Origin: Halobaculum limi | GTDB lineage: Archaea; Halobacteriota; Halobacteria; Halobacteriales; Haloferacaceae | Assembly: GCF_029490015.1 (NCBI RefSeq) | Contig: NZ_CP120468.1 | Span: forward strand, 2,418,001-2,482,000 | Direction of reading: 5' to 3' | Length of the DNA: 64,000 bases | Part shown: positions 18,036 through 26,227 of the stretch, piece after piece | How positions within the stretch are numbered: the first letter of the stretch is position 1 | Layout of the letters: every line of letters begins with the position of its first letter | Notes under the pieces: model-generated | What the model was told of the DNA's origin: nothing | Databases searched by the model: none | What the model saw: the letters and a program-made list of their open reading frames with translations, nothing else | Translations under genes and position numbers: made by a program

Positions 18036-19037
18036 TCATCGTTCTGGCTCTGGGGGATCTGCACGCTGCTCGCCGTCTTCGCTGGAAGGTGCCGCATCGA
18101 CAGCAGCATCTCCCTGCGGGCTTGTTGCACGCTCTACGCGTCGGACGCGATCGAGAGTCTCCTGGTGGAGTGTAACAACGAGGTCAGAGAGAACGCCGAA
18201 GATGAGTAACTGTACCCCAAGAATGATCCCAACACCAGCAACGATCGCAAGGACGTTGTGTGAAATCCCATTCACAAACCAGTCGTATGCAACGTAGGAG
18301 GCAATGAGCATCCCTGCAATACCGGCAACACCGCCAGCGCTCCCGAAGTAAAACAGCGGGTTCGATGTCTTTGCCTGCCGATAAATTGCCATCAGGATGA
18401 TGCCACCATCTTTCACCGGATGGAGATTTGTATCGGACCCATCTGGACGTGGCAAGTACGTGATTGGGACGACAGTCGTGCGGACGCCGTGCCGCGCACA
18501 CTCGACAGCCATCTCAGTCTCGATACCGAACCCATCAGCCGTGAGACGGAGTCGCCCGAAGGAGTCACGTGTGAAAGCGCGGTAACCAGAGAGAATGTCG
18601 CCGTAGTCTTCGTGGTGAACAAGCGAGAACAAACTGTTAAAGATAGTATTGCCAACGCTGTTCAGGCTCGTCATCGCGTCATCATGCATATTGGCAAACC
18701 GGTCGCCAATAACGTGTTCAGCGGTCCCCTCACGGAGCGGGGTGAGCATCGCGTCAGCATCGGCTGCCTCATATGTACCGTCTGCGTCTGCCATTAGAAC
18801 ATATTCTGCATCAACGTACTTACGAACGGCCTCACGAATGGCTTGTCCTTTTCCAGTGCCGGATTGAATCTCAACACGTGCGCCGGCATCACGAGCCAAG
18901 GCACGAGTGTCGTCTGTTGACCCACCGTCAATGACAAGAATATCTTCGTAGCCGTGAGATCGAAAGTCGGTGACGACGTCCGCAACGGTAGCGGCTTCGT
19001 CGTACGTGGGGAGGAGGACGCAGACGTCGTCAGTCAT
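18036..19037 (-). CDS. aglJ: GT2 dolichol-phosphate sugar transferase, AglJ-like
   Basis: 333 residues. The GT-A fold is clear: CVLLPTYDEAATVADVV, LVIDGGSTDDT, AGARVEIQSGTGKGQAIREAV, and YVLMADADGTYE with the metal-binding DXD. Then GDILSGYRAFTRDSF and TADGFGIETEMAVECARHGV are typical of DPM1/AglJ-type enzymes. Two C-terminal hydrophobic spans (about 228-250 and 262-285) anchor it to the membrane. AglJ of Haloferax adds the first sugar to dolichol phosphate in S-layer N-glycosylation; the similarity and nearby aglB support that role here. It ends in an acidic tail. Confidence 0.88.
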   Translation of the reverse strand: MTDDVCVLLPTYDEAATVADVVTDFRSHGYEDILVIDGGSTDDTRALARDAGARVEIQSGTGKGQAIREAVRKYVDAEYVLMADADGTYEAADADAMLTPLREGTAEHVIGDRFANMHDDAMTSLNSVGNTIFNSLFSLVHHEDYGDILSGYRAFTRDSFGRLRLTADGFGIETEMAVECARHGVRTTVVPITYLPRPDGSDTNLHPVKDGGIILMAIYRQAKTSNPLFYFGSAGGVAGIAGMLIASYVAYDWFVNGISHNVLAIVAGVGIILGVQLLIFGVLSDLVVTLHQETLDRVRRVERATSPQGDAAVDAAPSSEDGEQRADPPEPER

Positions 19038-19160
19038 AATTAATTGGTGGAGGTGGTGGTGAGTTATTGGTTTCGGGAGCGCGACGAAAACGACTCATCT
19101 CAAACAATGACCAACTTAGAGATATTCATAGGTGTCCCCTCATTACAAAGTCGGCGTGTT

Positions 19161-19166
19161 TTATAT
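19161..19166 (+). promoter_or_regulatory. TATA box for the GT2 gene at 19198
   Basis: TTATAT within GTTTTATATTGAG ends 31 bases before ATG 19198, fitting a leaderless or very short-leader transcript. It argues against the GTG at 19132, which would put the promoter inside the gene. Confidence 0.55.
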
Positions 19167-19197
19167 TGAGTTGAATATCTACTCACACACAGGTTCA

Positions 19198-20073
19198 ATG
19201 GCCCTCGACACCGTTTCTGTCTCAATTATTGTTCCAGTATATAATGATGCTACAGGGATAGCACAAACTATCGAGTCTTTGCTGAAATTGAATCACACCC
19301 CTGCAGAAATCCTAATCATCGACAACAACTCCACGGACAACACTCGAGATGTGATTCGCCAGAGTGCTGGAAACCACGACCACATCCAACTGCTTGTTGA
19401 AGATCAAGTACAGGGATCCTATGCAGCTCGAAATAGAGGAATAGAGTACGCAACGGGCGATGTCCTCGTCTTTCTGGATGCTGACGAGACTGTAACTAGT
19501 GACTGGCTGGGCGCTGCCGTCAGAGCATTAATTGATCAAGATGTCGACTACCTCGGCTGTAATGTGGAGCTCACGCTCGGCCAACACACGTACGTTGGAA
19601 AGTATAACGTTCGGACTGGCTTCCCGATCAAAGAATACATACAGAAACAACATTATGCACCAACTTGTGCTCTCCTTGTTCGAAAACAGGTATTTAATCA
19701 GATAGGCTCATTCGATAGCCGACTTATTTCAGGCGGTGATAAAGAATTTGGCGAGCGTGCCTATGAGGCGGGCTATAAGCAAGGGTATACCGATAGTGCA
19801 ACCGTCTATCATCCTGCACGCACTCAATTCAAATCGCTTGCAAAAAAGAACATCCGTGTGGGTCGGGGATTTTGCCAATTACAGCGTCACTATCCTGAAC
19901 GGTACGGAAATCCGGGAATCCCACCACGCCCTGAAGGCCCCACTACCAGCAGCGGTAACGGTAAAGAACCAACGTCGACGCAAGTTGTGTTCTTCGTTCT
20001 ATCTATTGTTATGCTTGCCTTCCGTGGTTTTGGCTATTATTATGAGTTCATCTCCAGTCGAAAGACGGATTGA
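19198..20073 (+). CDS. family 2 glycosyltransferase with C-terminal membrane span
   Basis: 291 residues from ATG 19198. GT-A motifs: SVSIIVPVYNDATGIAQTI, LIIDNNSTDNTRDVI, GSYAARNRGIEYATG, and VFLDADETVTSDW with the DXD. A later segment (FDSRLISGGDKEFGERAYEAGY) fits the acceptor domain. One hydrophobic span near residues 263-280 suggests membrane attachment. The gene is visibly more AT-rich than its neighbours and uses codons such as ATA, AAT and TAT freely, which suggests acquisition by transfer. Its place between aglJ and aglB points to N-glycan or other surface glycan assembly. The donor sugar cannot be read from sequence. Confidence 0.85.
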   Translation: MALDTVSVSIIVPVYNDATGIAQTIESLLKLNHTPAEILIIDNNSTDNTRDVIRQSAGNHDHIQLLVEDQVQGSYAARNRGIEYATGDVLVFLDADETVTSDWLGAAVRALIDQDVDYLGCNVELTLGQHTYVGKYNVRTGFPIKEYIQKQHYAPTCALLVRKQVFNQIGSFDSRLISGGDKEFGERAYEAGYKQGYTDSATVYHPARTQFKSLAKKNIRVGRGFCQLQRHYPERYGNPGIPPRPEGPTTSSGNGKEPTSTQVVFFVLSIVMLAFRGFGYYYEFISSRKTD

Positions 20074-20236: not shown

Positions 20237-21175
20237 TTACGAATTAGCTTTTTCGACCACACCCGGAGTCAGAGTTGCATATAGATAGCCAAGCCCAACG
20301 ACCGCGGTGAATACAAAGATCGTGAGCAACTGCTTGACTCCCGCAATTGACGGTGAACGAATCAATGCTGAAAGTCGTTTGGGTACGAAATGCATCATTA
20401 GTTGGTTGAGATATGCGCTCTTGTTATCTGGCGCATTTGGATACAAGAGGTCCATTACCCGCTTCGAATACCCCTGCCAGAACGATCGAAAGACCAGCCA
20501 AGTGAACTCACCCCGGTACTCGAACAACTTGTGGTGAACAATAGCACTCTCGGTGAATATCATCCCTTTCCCAAATGTGTTCAAAAGTCGAATCCCGACC
20601 GGGGCTTCGTGTGCTTGTAGGTGTTTGTCACCCTTACGCCCAGTGTTAGGGTCGTAACCGCCAACCTCGAGGAACTGCTCGCGGCGGTACGAAATATTCG
20701 AGCCGTAGGTATTACGCACCTCTTCACCGTCCTCAGCGAACCCCGGTTCGACGACCCCAACCAACCAATAGAATTCTTCCGGGAAGAAGTCAGGTTTGGC
20801 AACCTGCCAGTCAGGGCGGACGTCCCCACCGACAGCGATGGCGTCAGTAGACTCGTACACGTCGACGAGGTTCGCGACCCAATCTTCTTCAGCGACAGCG
20901 TCATCATCAATAAAGGCGACAATCTCGCCGCTAGCGAGCTCGGCGCCTTTTGTCCTACTGTAGGAGATGCCGCGGTTCTCGTCGTTGCAGTGAATGACTG
21001 TATTCGGTCGGTCGCTGAAATCCTCGCGGACTCGGTCGAACACCGCTTCGTTTCCGTCAACGACGAGGACGACCTCAACAGAGTCGTACGTCTGTGCGTA
21101 CGCGCTCTCAACGGTCTCCGAAAACGCCTCATATCGGTCCATCGCGTACGTACACACGACGACAGAGACTTCCAT
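20237..21175 (-). CDS. aglG: family 2 glycosyltransferase, AglG-like
   Basis: 312 residues. Motifs: SVVVCTYAMDRYEAFSETV, VVLVVDGNEAVFDRV, GISYSRTKGAELASG and IVAFIDDDAVAEEDW with the DXD, then EVRNTYGSNISYRREQFLEVG and GRKGDKHLQAHEAPVGIRLL. One C-terminal hydrophobic helix (about 284-305) anchors it. The motif pattern and position immediately before a divergent aglB match Haloferax AglG, which adds a hexuronic acid to the dolichol-linked glycan. The name is by similarity and synteny; AglI or another paralogue cannot be excluded. The starts of this gene and aglB lie 105 bases apart. Confidence 0.8.
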   Translation of the reverse strand: MEVSVVVCTYAMDRYEAFSETVESAYAQTYDSVEVVLVVDGNEAVFDRVREDFSDRPNTVIHCNDENRGISYSRTKGAELASGEIVAFIDDDAVAEEDWVANLVDVYESTDAIAVGGDVRPDWQVAKPDFFPEEFYWLVGVVEPGFAEDGEEVRNTYGSNISYRREQFLEVGGYDPNTGRKGDKHLQAHEAPVGIRLLNTFGKGMIFTESAIVHHKLFEYRGEFTWLVFRSFWQGYSKRVMDLLYPNAPDNKSAYLNQLMMHFVPKRLSALIRSPSIAGVKQLLTIFVFTAVVGLGYLYATLTPGVVEKANS

Positions 21176-21280
21176 TAGGTTGCTGTTGTTGGCAGGCCGC
21201 GTTAAAATTTGGTTATCGCGTCGCGCGCCGAGACGAGGGTTTCACAAGGCTTATCCTCGTTTTCCGAATTTACCGATGCA

Positions 21281-24200
21281 ATGAGTCGCAGCGACAGTGA
21301 CACGGCTCCGGATGGAGGATCGTCCCCAGCCTCCGTTTCGGGGTTAGACTACGACTTCTCGGGAAAGTCCGCCACGGACATCCTCCGAGACTTCTATCAC
21401 GTCCCAGCCCTGCTCGCAGTGATTGCGGTGATGCTGTGGATTCGTCTCCAATCGTACAGTAACTTCATTCGAGACGGCGAGGTCTACTTCTCGGGCAACG
21501 ACGCTTGGTACCACCTCCGTCAAGTTGAGTATACAGTTGCGAACTGGCCGTTCACGATGCCATATGACCCCTGGACGTACTACCCGTTCGGCACCAACGC
21601 TGCCCAGTTCGGTACGCTGTATGATCAGCTGGTCGCGACGGCGGCGTTAGTCGTCGGCCTCGGGTCACCCTCCGAGACGCTCGTGGCGCAGACGTTGCTC
21701 GTCGCGCCTGCAGTATTCGGCGCGCTTGTTGCTATCCCGACGTACCTCATTGGGAAGCGCCTCGGCGGCCGGCTCGGTGGCCTCTTCAGCGCCGTCATTC
21801 TGATGCTGCTTCCGGGAACGTTCCTCCGCCGAGGCCTCGTCGGTTTCGCAGATCACAACGTCGCAGAACCTCTATTCCAGGGTCTTGCAGTCGTTGCGTT
21901 GATGATCGCACTGGCGGTCGCTCAGCGTGACCGGCCTATCTGGGAACTCGCCCAAGCACGTGAGTGGGACGAACTCAAGCCGACTACAGCGTGGAGCGCA
22001 CTAGCTGGCGTCGCGGTCTCGCTATACCTGTTCGTGTGGCCTCCGGGCGTCCTCCTCATTGGTATCTTTGGGGTCTATGTCATCTACCAGGTCGTGAGCG
22101 CCCACGCTGGTGAAACATCCTCCCCAGACCACGTGGCGTTTGTCGCTGCTGTCTCGATGGGAGTGACGACGCTGCTACTGCTACTTAACCTTGAGACGAC
22201 TGGATTTAGCCCGACTGATTACGGGCTGCTGCAGCCATTTGCCTCGGCCAGTGTCGCCGTCGCTGCTATAGGATTAGCGTGGGGCGCCCGTATCCTGAAC
22301 GCAGCAGATGACGAACGTCTCCGCGAGTTCGGCTTCCCCGGTGCGATTCTTGGGCTGTCGGTGGTCGGCGTCCTTGCGCTGTTGTTCGTTGACCTCTCGG
22401 TGTTTGTCACGATCCGGACGAACCTCCTGCGATTCGTCGGCTTCTCAGCGGGCGCGGAGACGCGAACCATCGGCGAGGCTCAGCCATTCCTTCAGTCTGG
22501 TTTAGTCCAGTATTACGGCGGCTTTGGCGTCGTACTTGCGGAGTACGGCTTTGCGTTCCTCACCGCAACTGCAGCGGCCGTGTGGCTCCTAGTAAAACCA
22601 CTCTGGAAGCGCGGCACTACGGGTGACTACTACTACCTTGGCGGTTCAGCGGCGGTGTTGCTGTTAATCTTCGTCGGCGGCCCCGTGTTCAACAGCGTCG
22701 CGAGCGGCCTCGGATTCAGTCCGCAGGTGGCTGGCCTCGCACTGGTCGCCCTCCTCGTGTTCGGCGCAGTCGCGCGTATTCACTACGACGCCGAACACTT
22801 GTTCGTGTTCGTCTGGGCGGCGTTCATCACTGCCGCGGCGTTCACGCAGGTGCGCTTCAACTACTACCTCGCTGTCTCTGTGGCGGCGCTGAACGCGTAC
22901 TTCCTGAAAGAAATCCTCGCAGTCATCGGCATCAACTTCGCGGAAGGACTCTCACTTCCGGACATCAAGACATACCAGTACATCGCCGTCGCGATGGCAG
23001 TGCTGGTCGTCTTGGGTCCGGTACTCGTCGTGCCGCTGTCGCTGGGTAACAGCGGCAGTCCCTCCATCGACCGCACGGGCACCGCCGTCGGCGTCGGCAA
23101 CAATACCGGCCCTGGGTCGGTCACCATCTGGGATGAGAATCTCCAGTGGATGAATGAGAATACGCCCGCAGAGGGTAACCTCGAGGGTGCAGGTAACGCC
23201 GACGAGTTAGAGTACTACGGCACCTACGAGCGTCCTGCAGACAGTGACTACGATTACGCTGAGGGAACCTACGGCGTGATGTCGTGGTGGGACTACGGCC
23301 ACTGGATCACGACGCGCGGCGAGCGCATCCCGCACGCTAACCCGTTCCAGCAGGGGGCGACTACGGCCGCGAACTTCCTGCTTGCACCGAGCGAAGAGCG
23401 TGCAGGTGAGGTCCTCGCTGGCATTGACGACGACGGCGAGGCCGAACAGATGCGATATGTGATGGTCGACTGGCAGATGGTCACCGTCGGCTCGAAGTTC
23501 GGCGCACCCGTCGTCTTCTACGACGACGAGAACGTCTCCGCGTCAGACTTCTATTCGCCAACGCTGCGCGCCCAGCAGACTGCACAGGGAACGCAGTACG
23601 GCGTGGCGTTCTACGACCGCGAACAGCGGTACTACGAGAGTATGATGGTTCGGCTGTACAAGCACCACGGGAGTCGGGCCGAACCGACGGTCAACACGCT
23701 GTTCGGTGAGCGTGTCGTCGTCTTCGACTACGACACCGTCTCCGCGAACGACGGAACGACGTACAAAGTGCTCCCACAAGGAGAGAACGCGACTGCCATT
23801 CGGACGTTCGCGAATATGAGCGCCGCTCAGCAGTTCGTCGAGGAAGACGGCACCGCACAAATCGGTGGTGTCGGGGCGTACCCGCGCGAGCCCGTGCCAG
23901 CGCTGGAACACTACCGCCTCGTGAGCACGACGAACACGTCGGCGTACGCTGCCGGCGATTACCAGCGGAGCGTCCTCCGTCAGTCGCAGTCGCTCGGCCT
24001 GCGTCCGTCGCTGCTCCAGCAGACGCAGCCGCAGTGGGTAAAAACGTTCGAGAAGGTGCCCGGTGCGACCATCGAAGGCTCGGGTGCAGACCCCAACGAA
24101 ACGGTGACTGCGACGGTCCGCCTGCAGGTGCCGAACGGCGGCACCGGTGGCAACGCTTCGACGTTCACGTACACCCAAGAGACGACCGCTGGGCCTGACG

Positions 24201-24652
24201 GGAACTTCGAGTTCACCGTTCCGTACTCGACGGTTGGCTACGACGAGTACGGCCCTGAAAACGGCTACACCAACGTGAGTGTACGCGCCGTCGACGGCTA
24301 CACCATCACCGGCGAGGTTCGCTCGAATGAGAGCGGCTACATCCTCCGCAACCAAGGGAACGTGAACGTGAGCGAGGGCCTCGTCAACGGCGATATGGAT
24401 GGAAGCGCGTCGGTCGACCTCAGCGAGAGCGTCCTGCGTGTGCCCGAGGGTGCACAGAACGATTCTGCGTCGAACAACACGACCGAGAACACGAGTGCAC
24501 TTCCCAGCGAGTTCGACTCGCTGAACGCGAACGGGCTTGACGCCGCCACCGCGACGGCGGCCGACTCACCTGACGCGGTCGGCGTTGACGACGGCCTCGC
24601 TGCCGAACCGTTTGAGATTCGCGCACCAACCAGCCGCAGTATCGCTCCGTAG
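21281..24652 (+). CDS. aglB: archaeal oligosaccharyltransferase (STT3/AglB)
   Basis: 1123 residues from ATG 21281; an AT-rich element (CTTATCC) lies about 26 bases upstream. AglB transfers the lipid-linked glycan to Asn in N-X-S/T sequons on the outer face of the membrane. Seen: a single N-terminal span, then SGNDAWYHLRQVEY (Asp74, metal and catalytic), about a dozen membrane helices to about residue 595, the signature MSWWDYGHWIT (WWDYG 669-673) in the soluble domain, and a long C-terminal beta-rich region with its own N-X-S/T sequons. The frame is open a little further upstream, but MSRSDSDTAPDG is the natural hydrophilic start. The next gene begins on the base after the stop. Confidence 0.95.
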   Translation: MSRSDSDTAPDGGSSPASVSGLDYDFSGKSATDILRDFYHVPALLAVIAVMLWIRLQSYSNFIRDGEVYFSGNDAWYHLRQVEYTVANWPFTMPYDPWTYYPFGTNAAQFGTLYDQLVATAALVVGLGSPSETLVAQTLLVAPAVFGALVAIPTYLIGKRLGGRLGGLFSAVILMLLPGTFLRRGLVGFADHNVAEPLFQGLAVVALMIALAVAQRDRPIWELAQAREWDELKPTTAWSALAGVAVSLYLFVWPPGVLLIGIFGVYVIYQVVSAHAGETSSPDHVAFVAAVSMGVTTLLLLLNLETTGFSPTDYGLLQPFASASVAVAAIGLAWGARILNAADDERLREFGFPGAILGLSVVGVLALLFVDLSVFVTIRTNLLRFVGFSAGAETRTIGEAQPFLQSGLVQYYGGFGVVLAEYGFAFLTATAAAVWLLVKPLWKRGTTGDYYYLGGSAAVLLLIFVGGPVFNSVASGLGFSPQVAGLALVALLVFGAVARIHYDAEHLFVFVWAAFITAAAFTQVRFNYYLAVSVAALNAYFLKEILAVIGINFAEGLSLPDIKTYQYIAVAMAVLVVLGPVLVVPLSLGNSGSPSIDRTGTAVGVGNNTGPGSVTIWDENLQWMNENTPAEGNLEGAGNADELEYYGTYERPADSDYDYAEGTYGVMSWWDYGHWITTRGERIPHANPFQQGATTAANFLLAPSEERAGEVLAGIDDDGEAEQMRYVMVDWQMVTVGSKFGAPVVFYDDENVSASDFYSPTLRAQQTAQGTQYGVAFYDREQRYYESMMVRLYKHHGSRAEPTVNTLFGERVVVFDYDTVSANDGTTYKVLPQGENATAIRTFANMSAAQQFVEEDGTAQIGGVGAYPREPVPALEHYRLVSTTNTSAYAAGDYQRSVLRQSQSLGLRPSLLQQTQPQWVKTFEKVPGATIEGSGADPNETVTATVRLQVPNGGTGGNASTFTYTQETTAGPDGNFEFTVPYSTVGYDEYGPENGYTNVSVRAVDGYTITGEVRSNESGYILRNQGNVNVSEGLVNGDMDGSASVDLSESVLRVPEGAQNDSASNNTTENTSALPSEFDSLNANGLDAATATAADSPDAVGVDDGLAAEPFEIRAPTSRSIAP

Positions 24653-25678
24653 ATGAGTGACGCCGGAGACGACGAGGCGGGAACGCAACCCGACGGCGGC
24701 GTGGAAGCCGTCGACACCGACGCAATGTCGGTTGATGACGACCTCGCGAACGACGTCGGCGCGGTCGGTGCGTACCTCCGTGGCGTCGCAATGGGGGCGG
24801 CAGACGCTGTCCCCGGTGTCTCCGGCGGCACAATCGCGCTGATCACCGGTATCTACGACCGCCTGATCACGGCGTTCACCTCGGCGTCACCAGCGCTTGT
24901 GCGTCGTGTCCTCTCGGATCTGGTGTCCGACCCAGCCGACCTCAAGACGGTGTTTCGTGAGGTCGATGGCGCGTTCTTGCTCGCGTTGGGTGCGGGCATC
25001 GCAACAGCTATCCTCACCGTAACCCGCGCGCTTGACATCGCTTTAGAGACGATTCCAGTACTGACCTACGGGTTCTTCTTCGGCCTAATCGGAGCCTCGG
25101 CAGTCGTCTTACGTGGCGAACTCGTCTTGAATACGCGTGGCCGGATCGCTGCCGCAATCGTGGGCGTCGTCGTCGCGTTCGTCGCCTCTGGAAGCGCAAG
25201 CGCCGCGCTCGGTACCTCGGTCGCGGCAACATTCTTCGCAGGCGCAGTCGCAGTGAGCGCGATGATCCTCCCTGGTATCTCCGGATCGCTGTTGCTCGTT
25301 ATCCTCGGCCAGTACGAACGGATGACGAGTGCGCTGTCGGCGTTCGTTGACGCCCTCCTGGCAACACTCACAGGCGGGTCAACGGCGACCGTCGTCGAGA
25401 CGGGCGTACCCGTCGTCGCCTTCCTCTCCGGCGGTGTCGTTGGCCTGTTGACGGTCGCCCACACCGTGCGCGCGGCGCTGTCAGCCCGTCGGGAGGCGAC
25501 GCTGGCGTTCCTCGTCGGACTCATCGTGGGTGCGCTTCGTGCCCCTGTCGTCAGAGTCACCGAGGCGGTCGGCAGCTGGACACTCACCATCGGCGGTGAG
25601 TTCGCCCTCGCCGCTGCAGTGGGAGCTGTACTTGTCGTCGGCGTCGAACGCGCTGCCGGCGGCATCGACATTGACTGA
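24653..25678 (+). CDS. DUF368 membrane protein, predicted polyprenyl-phosphate transporter
   Basis: 341 residues, starting directly after the aglB stop, so the two are surely co-transcribed. An acidic N-terminus of about 40 residues is followed by 8 or so membrane helices. The family signature occurs twice, as expected of an internal inverted repeat: DAVPGVSGGTIALITGIYDRLI and SAMILPGISGSLLLVILGQYE. Bacterial DUF368 proteins (PopT-type) return undecaprenyl phosphate across the membrane. Beside an oligosaccharyltransferase, the likely cargo is dolichyl phosphate or pyrophosphate carrier released on the outer face. Family call is firm; cargo is inferred. Confidence 0.88.
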   Translation: MSDAGDDEAGTQPDGGVEAVDTDAMSVDDDLANDVGAVGAYLRGVAMGAADAVPGVSGGTIALITGIYDRLITAFTSASPALVRRVLSDLVSDPADLKTVFREVDGAFLLALGAGIATAILTVTRALDIALETIPVLTYGFFFGLIGASAVVLRGELVLNTRGRIAAAIVGVVVAFVASGSASAALGTSVAATFFAGAVAVSAMILPGISGSLLLVILGQYERMTSALSAFVDALLATLTGGSTATVVETGVPVVAFLSGGVVGLLTVAHTVRAALSARREATLAFLVGLIVGALRAPVVRVTEAVGSWTLTIGGEFALAAAVGAVLVVGVERAAGGIDID

Positions 25679-25780: not shown

Positions 25781-26227
25781 ATGAGTGATGAGACCGCCGA
25801 CACTGCGGTCCGCGAGGTAATCGTTCGCGCCGAAGGACACGAACACGTCTCTGCCGAGCACACCAGTACGTTCGAAGTGACGAGCGACGACTGGCTCACC
25901 CCCGCGGGCGACTGCATTCTCGCAGTCGACGCCGACACCACCCCCGCAGACGTGCCACAGTCGTTCGTCGAAGCGTGTCGAAGTCACGAGGCGACGATCA
26001 CCGCTGAATTCGCCGCGGCCGATGCGACACAGACGGTCGAGGGGCACGGTCATCCGGACCTCACCTTCGAGGGCAACCGGAGTATGGTCGGGCGAACAAG
26101 CGAGTACGTTGATGAGCGAACCATTATGATCGGCGCGGACGCGGCCGCCACGGACTTCCACCGCCGACTCGTCACGGCGTTGGAACGGGGCGCACCGCTG
26201 ACGATGACGCTGCGTGTCGAACCGTGA
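25781..26227 (+). CDS. DUF371 family archaeal protein
   Basis: 148 residues from ATG 25781. The family pattern is visible: a GHEHVSAEHTSTFEVTSDDWLTPAGDC-type beta region (about 20-46, ending in the conserved Cys), ILAVDADTTPADVPQSFVEACR, and a second half GHGHPDLTFEGNRSMVGRTSEYVDERTIMIGADAAATD. The family is widespread in archaea with no known activity. It stands alone between the glycosylation cluster and a secreted protein gene. Confidence 0.85.
   Translation: MSDETADTAVREVIVRAEGHEHVSAEHTSTFEVTSDDWLTPAGDCILAVDADTTPADVPQSFVEACRSHEATITAEFAAADATQTVEGHGHPDLTFEGNRSMVGRTSEYVDERTIMIGADAAATDFHRRLVTALERGAPLTMTLRVEP

Follow-up and report, generated by a model that had tools for sequence, protein, structure and literature searches.

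A DUF368 membrane protein encoded directly behind aglB in haloarchaea, a candidate for the return of dolichyl phosphate in archaeal N-glycosylation

In a segment of the Halobaculum limi genome, a gene that encodes a PopT/DUF368-family membrane protein follows aglB without any intervening nucleotide, and we find the two genes linked in 51 of 77 genera of Halobacteria. The reading that we favor, with a probability of roughly 0.66, is that the product is an archaeal PopT/DUF368 transporter that would return spent dolichyl phosphate in the service of AglB, with the direction of transport presumably inward and the two genes putatively co-transcribed. After AglB has transferred the glycan, uncharged dolichyl phosphate remains on the outer face of the membrane, and each round of N-glycosylation strands one such molecule on the wrong side. 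The features that bear on this reading are listed below; by the window we mean the whole 64,000-nucleotide stretch of DNA that was analysed, and all positions refer to it.

18036..19037, minus strand: aglJ, for the glycosyltransferase that opens the haloarchaeal N-glycan pathway
20237..21175, minus strand: aglG-type dolichyl-phosphate glycosyltransferase, divergent from aglB
21281..24652, plus strand: aglB, encoding the archaeal oligosaccharyltransferase (1123 codons when counted from the ATG; TAG stop at 24650-24652)
24650..24655, plus strand: junction of the aglB stop TAG and the DUF368 ATG, with a spacer of 0 nt
24653..25678, plus strand: DUF368/PopT-family membrane protein gene (PF04018; 341 aa; ATG at 24653, TGA at 25676-25678), the proposed dolichyl-phosphate return transporter
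24812..24826, plus strand: PGVSG, the first of the two signature loops (residues 54-58; flanked by predicted helices 34-52 and 58-65)
25271..25285, plus strand: PGISG, the second of the two signature loops (residues 207-211; flanked by predicted helices 190-203 and 211-217)
25781-26227, plus strand: DUF371 gene of unknown function, about 100 bases behind the DUF368 gene

The product of aglB matches TIGR04154 with 876.8 bits against a cut-off of 450, placing it among the AglB proteins, and contains the Pfam domains PF02516, PF22627 and PF18079 (STT3, AglB-core, AglB_L1); WWDYG is present in its sequence, presumably as a motif of the oligosaccharyltransferase type. An alternative, longer aglB could start at a TTG at position 21209. 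Just upstream, AglJ matches TIGR04182 (439.6 bits, cut-off 325) and the AglG-type protein matches NF041394 (513.8 bits, cut-off 440), and because both exceed their equivalog cut-offs the site can be recognized as an N-glycosylation locus. Between aglJ and aglG lies a family 2 glycosyltransferase gene at 19132-20073, whose product passes no equivalog cut-off among the best 25 of its 30 NCBIfam matches, and which possibly serves a later step of the glycan. The original prediction placed the start of the DUF368 gene on the base after the aglB stop, and the sequence agrees, with TAG at 24650-24652 and the ATG immediately following; we infer from the zero spacing that the two genes would be expressed together on one message. 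A scan for bacterial-type promoters, which does not cover archaeal ones, gave 0 sites. The genome contains one copy of PF04018.

Membership of the downstream protein in the PopT/DUF368 family, originally proposed from two PG-(V/I)-SG loops, is borne out by a match to PF04018 of 210.1 bits (gathering cut-off 26) across profile positions 1-227 of 246, and Pfam now describes this family as undecaprenyl phosphate translocase-like. At E ≤ 0.001 the protein matches no other Pfam family, and the DedA/UptA family PF09335 (VTT) is accordingly not among its matches. The two relevant NCBIfam equivalog models, each with a cut-off of 400 bits, give scores of 187 (NF052564, VCA0040-type) and 83.7 (NF052563, PopT), so that the protein is best described as a family member and not as a named equivalog; its PHROGs match carries no known function. 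In a 39-row archaeal alignment and in a 48-row alignment of archaeal and bacterial sequences, the P, G, S and G of both loops never vary; D51 is conserved as well. When the N-terminal half is compared with the C-terminal half by hhalign the two align with both loops in register (probability 98, E 2.7e-13), indicating that the protein is an internal duplication with one loop in each half. An AlphaFold2 model made from 48 sequences (mean pLDDT 88.2, pTM 0.82) places each loop between two helices. The two halves may be inserted in the membrane in opposite orientations, a family trait for which the model supplies the order of the helices. Sequence searching revealed no solved relatives, and a Foldseek search of the PDB with the model returned no match at E ≤ 0.001. 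The top row from VIA-align, BbZIP, has a Z of 10.4 and an rmsd of 3.9 across 162 residues, values that are common for helical models with this tool, and we therefore claim no kinship in fold.

Two surveys show how widely the gene pair occurs. Among 292 genomes of the class, PF04018 and TIGR04154 were each found in at least 289, and in a second sampling of one genome per genus, covering 77 genera of Halobacteria, they were found in 76 and 77 genera respectively. DUF368 lies directly downstream of aglB and on the same strand in 47 of these genera, with less than 1 kb between the profile matches, and four more have it downstream in the same orientation at a distance of about 2-3 kb; the 51 genera that we therefore count as linked span nine of the eleven haloarchaeal families. 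Immediate same-strand adjacency in 47 of 77 genera leads us to reject chance as the cause of the junction, and the 51 linked genera rule out a quirk of this strain, so that the pairing first noted in a single genome extends well beyond it. The linked loci number 51 when the window is counted with the 50 that were fetched; 31 of them have a candidate DUF368 start no more than 20 nt away from the aglB stop and nine others have one at 21-100 nt, under a rule that takes the nearest in-frame ATG, GTG or TTG and has a bias to short spacings. Of the four loci with larger gaps, two contain an inserted UDP-glucose dehydrogenase gene that is encoded on the opposite strand, joined in one of them by a gene for a nucleotidyl transferase; both insertions are in genomes of a single family (f1).

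In 25 of the 77 genera DUF368 is located away from aglB, with the two genes on different contigs in seven of the 25, some of these perhaps reflecting assembly breaks, and one genus (G021) has aglB but no DUF368. Among named haloarchaeal records, aglB is no more than 6 kb upstream of DUF368 in 10 of 18 loci recovered by a genome scan, including those from Halorubrum, Halolamina, Haladaptatus, Haloglomus and Halorhabdus, and at least two of the eight other loci appear to be extra copies: L222, on a plasmid, and L208, apparently the second copy of genome G231. The plasmid-borne copy belongs to Haladaptatus pallidirubidus, and the start of its extracted frame is unlike the family. Two draft genomes of one genus are without both STT3 and DUF368, a double absence that fits joint loss and also fits a joint assembly gap; in a further genome, G225, DUF368 is present and no STT3 was found.

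Plain inertia of gene order would be a simple explanation for the linkage in Halobacteria, and we judge it unlikely because the other downstream neighbors of the pair have been lost. Of the genes that lie downstream in the window, DUF371 is near aglB in four of 50 linked loci, DUF7332 in two, mgsA in one and the beta-CASP gene in two; since these 50 loci were selected for having DUF368, the fair rate for DUF368 itself is 51 of 77. The divergent aglG is kept in 30 of the 50, as expected for a gene of the pathway. In a tree of 104 rows, linked rows occur throughout the haloarchaeal clade, and of the 27 unlinked rows 21 group in a single nested clade; the linked label requires eight changes, as against a mean of 35 when shuffled. 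This distribution makes the linkage look ancestral in Halobacteria, with an origin at the base of the class followed, as it appears from the tree, by one major relocation and a number of individual losses.

The 21-row unlinked clade (L142-L149, L151-L158 and L160-L164) nests within the clade of the window's own family and occurs in other families also, and in genome G131 a copy of this type is found alongside a second, different one. The clade looks like the product of horizontal spread and displacement. Some of its copies adjoin chaperonin and metallo-beta-lactamase genes, and no glycosylation genes were recognized beside the unlinked copies that were examined.

Outside of Halobacteria the picture is different. 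DUF368 is rare in the rest of the phylum, with PF04018 in 34 of 203 genomes; all 34 contain STT3, which was counted in these positives only, so that co-presence is not used as support. STT3 and DUF368 are within about 20 kb of each other in only five of the 34 genomes, which are from methanogens and relatives, and side by side in none. In four genomes of one family (f30) they are 13-15 kb apart. The single locus that was annotated in detail has chaperonin and TiaS genes in the interval, and as these are unrelated the proximity was not counted as support. In several methanogens (L195, L198, L200-L203 and L205) DUF368 is directly followed by a gene of one cluster, the scanned member of which is methanogenesis marker 12 (TIGR03281), and beyond this are 2-oxoacid:ferredoxin oxidoreductase genes.

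The Thermoplasmata have PF04018 in 13 of 80 genomes, from which 14 loci were fetched. A same-strand run of STT3, AMMECR1, amidohydrolase and DUF368 genes is found in all ten loci that reach STT3 (L309, L310, L312, L313, L314, L316, L317, L318, L320 and L321), and a gene of the inositol-phosphatase family follows DUF368 in nine of the ten, the contig of the tenth ending near the end of the DUF368 match. The loci that end before STT3 are L308, L311, L315 and L319, the last a divergent copy that groups with bacteria. In the tree, 11 of 13 Thermoplasmata DUF368 rows form a clade apart from the haloarchaeal one. The run is a second, looser linkage of STT3 and DUF368; because the whole of it is conserved on both sides of DUF368 the STT3-DUF368 pair is not singled out, and gene-order inertia is a possible explanation here.

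DUF368 proteins are reported to be undecaprenyl-phosphate translocases, and in the part of that report available to us the Haloferax volcanii member HVO_RS12060 restores, at least in part, the growth of a Vibrio cholerae DUF368 deletion strain under alkaline conditions, with dolichol phosphate named as a wider implication (Sit et al. 2022, PMC9876793). As far as that portion of the report goes, the rescue makes it likely that an archaeal member of the family transports polyprenyl phosphate. Taken together, the known translocase family, the Haloferax rescue and the linkage to aglB are best read as pointing to a protein that returns dolichyl phosphate to the inner leaflet. AglB would transfer the glycan and leave the spent polyprenyl (dolichyl) phosphate in the outer leaflet, the DUF368 protein would move it back to the cytoplasmic leaflet, perhaps by alternating access through its two repeat halves, and AglJ and AglG would recharge it. 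The original prediction of a role in dolichyl-phosphate recycling has thus held up with respect to family, loops, linkage and probable polyprenyl-phosphate transport, but a role dedicated to AglB is weakened by the 25 of 77 genera without linkage, by the genus that has aglB and no DUF368, and by the occurrence of DedA proteins in 76 of 77 genera. A more specific proposal, in which DUF368 would act as a module for carrier return coupled to the oligosaccharyltransferase, made from AglB's message and taking up dolichyl phosphate at the site where AglB releases it, ancestral in Halobacteria and extending to the Thermoplasmata, we put forward only tentatively; if true, the carrier of archaeal N-glycosylation would have its first assigned return route.

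The unlinked third of the genera, G021, G225, the DedA proteins, and the chaperonin and metallo-beta-lactamase neighbors raise the prospect that the DUF368 protein serves several pathways. It might then be a general recycler of polyprenyl phosphate that serves a number of envelope pathways and acts in salt or pH stress, positioned beside aglB merely since AglB uses more of the carrier than anything else does, and without being specifically coupled to it. This would account for the occurrence of DUF368 in 76 of 77 genera whether linked to aglB or not, and for the absence of any recognized glycosylation gene beside those relocated copies that were examined; it would also fit the enrichment of DUF368 in Halobacteria and the role in salt and alkaline fitness proposed in the available part of Sit et al. 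2022 (PMC9876793). However, it leaves unexplained why aglB, and not a gene of another pathway, is the partner in 51 of 77 genera, and it offers no account of the STT3 run in Thermoplasmata; we consider it unlikely, if still worth serious attention.

The position beside aglB would suit equally well an outward flippase of glycan-charged dolichyl phosphate that feeds AglB, and the portion of PMC4335974 consulted gives the mechanism of outward transfer in haloarchaea as unknown, with AglR involved. Against this, the activity tested for bacterial members of the family is on undecaprenyl phosphate in its bare form, the bacterial mutant rescued by the Haloferax homologue is affected in that same step (PMC9876793, as seen in part), and homologues are present in many bacteria; an outward role is accordingly very improbable. 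We give the slightest chance of all to a scheme in which an UptA-like DedA protein carries out the return and DUF368 is redundant or acts on another lipid. The broad distribution of PF09335 is compatible with this, as is G021, where aglB and DedA matches are found and DUF368 is not, and the genome containing the window encodes three PF09335 proteins, one of which is nearest to UptA (54 bits, cut-off 250). Nonetheless, all three are weak matches (41-44 bits against a cut-off of 33.9) and their genes lie elsewhere, none of them beside aglB. Return of dolichyl phosphate by the DUF368 protein for AglB remains the reading that we prefer.

The DUF368 family, its activity and the bacterial test of an archaeal member are already known; linkage to aglB was not found in the literature searched, which contained no paper treating AglB and DUF368 together and did not extend to Roney and Rudner 2022, reportedly the companion paper to Sit et al. 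2022. Searching for AglB with dolichol phosphate and recycling recovered only work on a Sulfolobus pyrophosphatase, which, in the part of that work seen, recycles dolichyl pyrophosphate to dolichyl phosphate (PMC5222938). Likewise, those parts of the literature on archaeal pathways that were consulted name no protein that flips dolichyl phosphate back. The Halobacterium cluster described in the available portion of PMC4335974 runs from VNG1048G to VNG1068G, and because it ends with aglB (VNG1068G) a gene behind aglB would fall outside of it. We regard the DUF368 protein as the best candidate for the missing carrier-return step in archaea, and the conserved aglB-DUF368 unit provides a named candidate for deletion in Haloferax volcanii, an organism for which assays of S-layer glycans exist. 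A role in return would extend a recently recognized bacterial transporter family to carriers of the dolichol type.

Among the systems with which the window protein can be compared, Haloferax volcanii HVO_RS12060 is likewise a haloarchaeal DUF368 protein, and it is to this homologue that the rescue data, as seen in part of Sit et al. 2022, belong. UptA and other DedA proteins (PF09335), proposed for the same task on undecaprenyl phosphate, are from a different Pfam family. With bacterial PopT and VCA0040 the window protein shares a PF04018 score over the cut-off and the same two PG-x-SG loops, its nearest NCBIfam model being the VCA0040 type. It differs from them in having an oligosaccharyltransferase gene as its partner, in scoring below the 400-bit equivalog cut-offs and in belonging to a clade apart from the bacterial rows, and also in the carrier of its archaeal host, which we take to be dolichyl phosphate.
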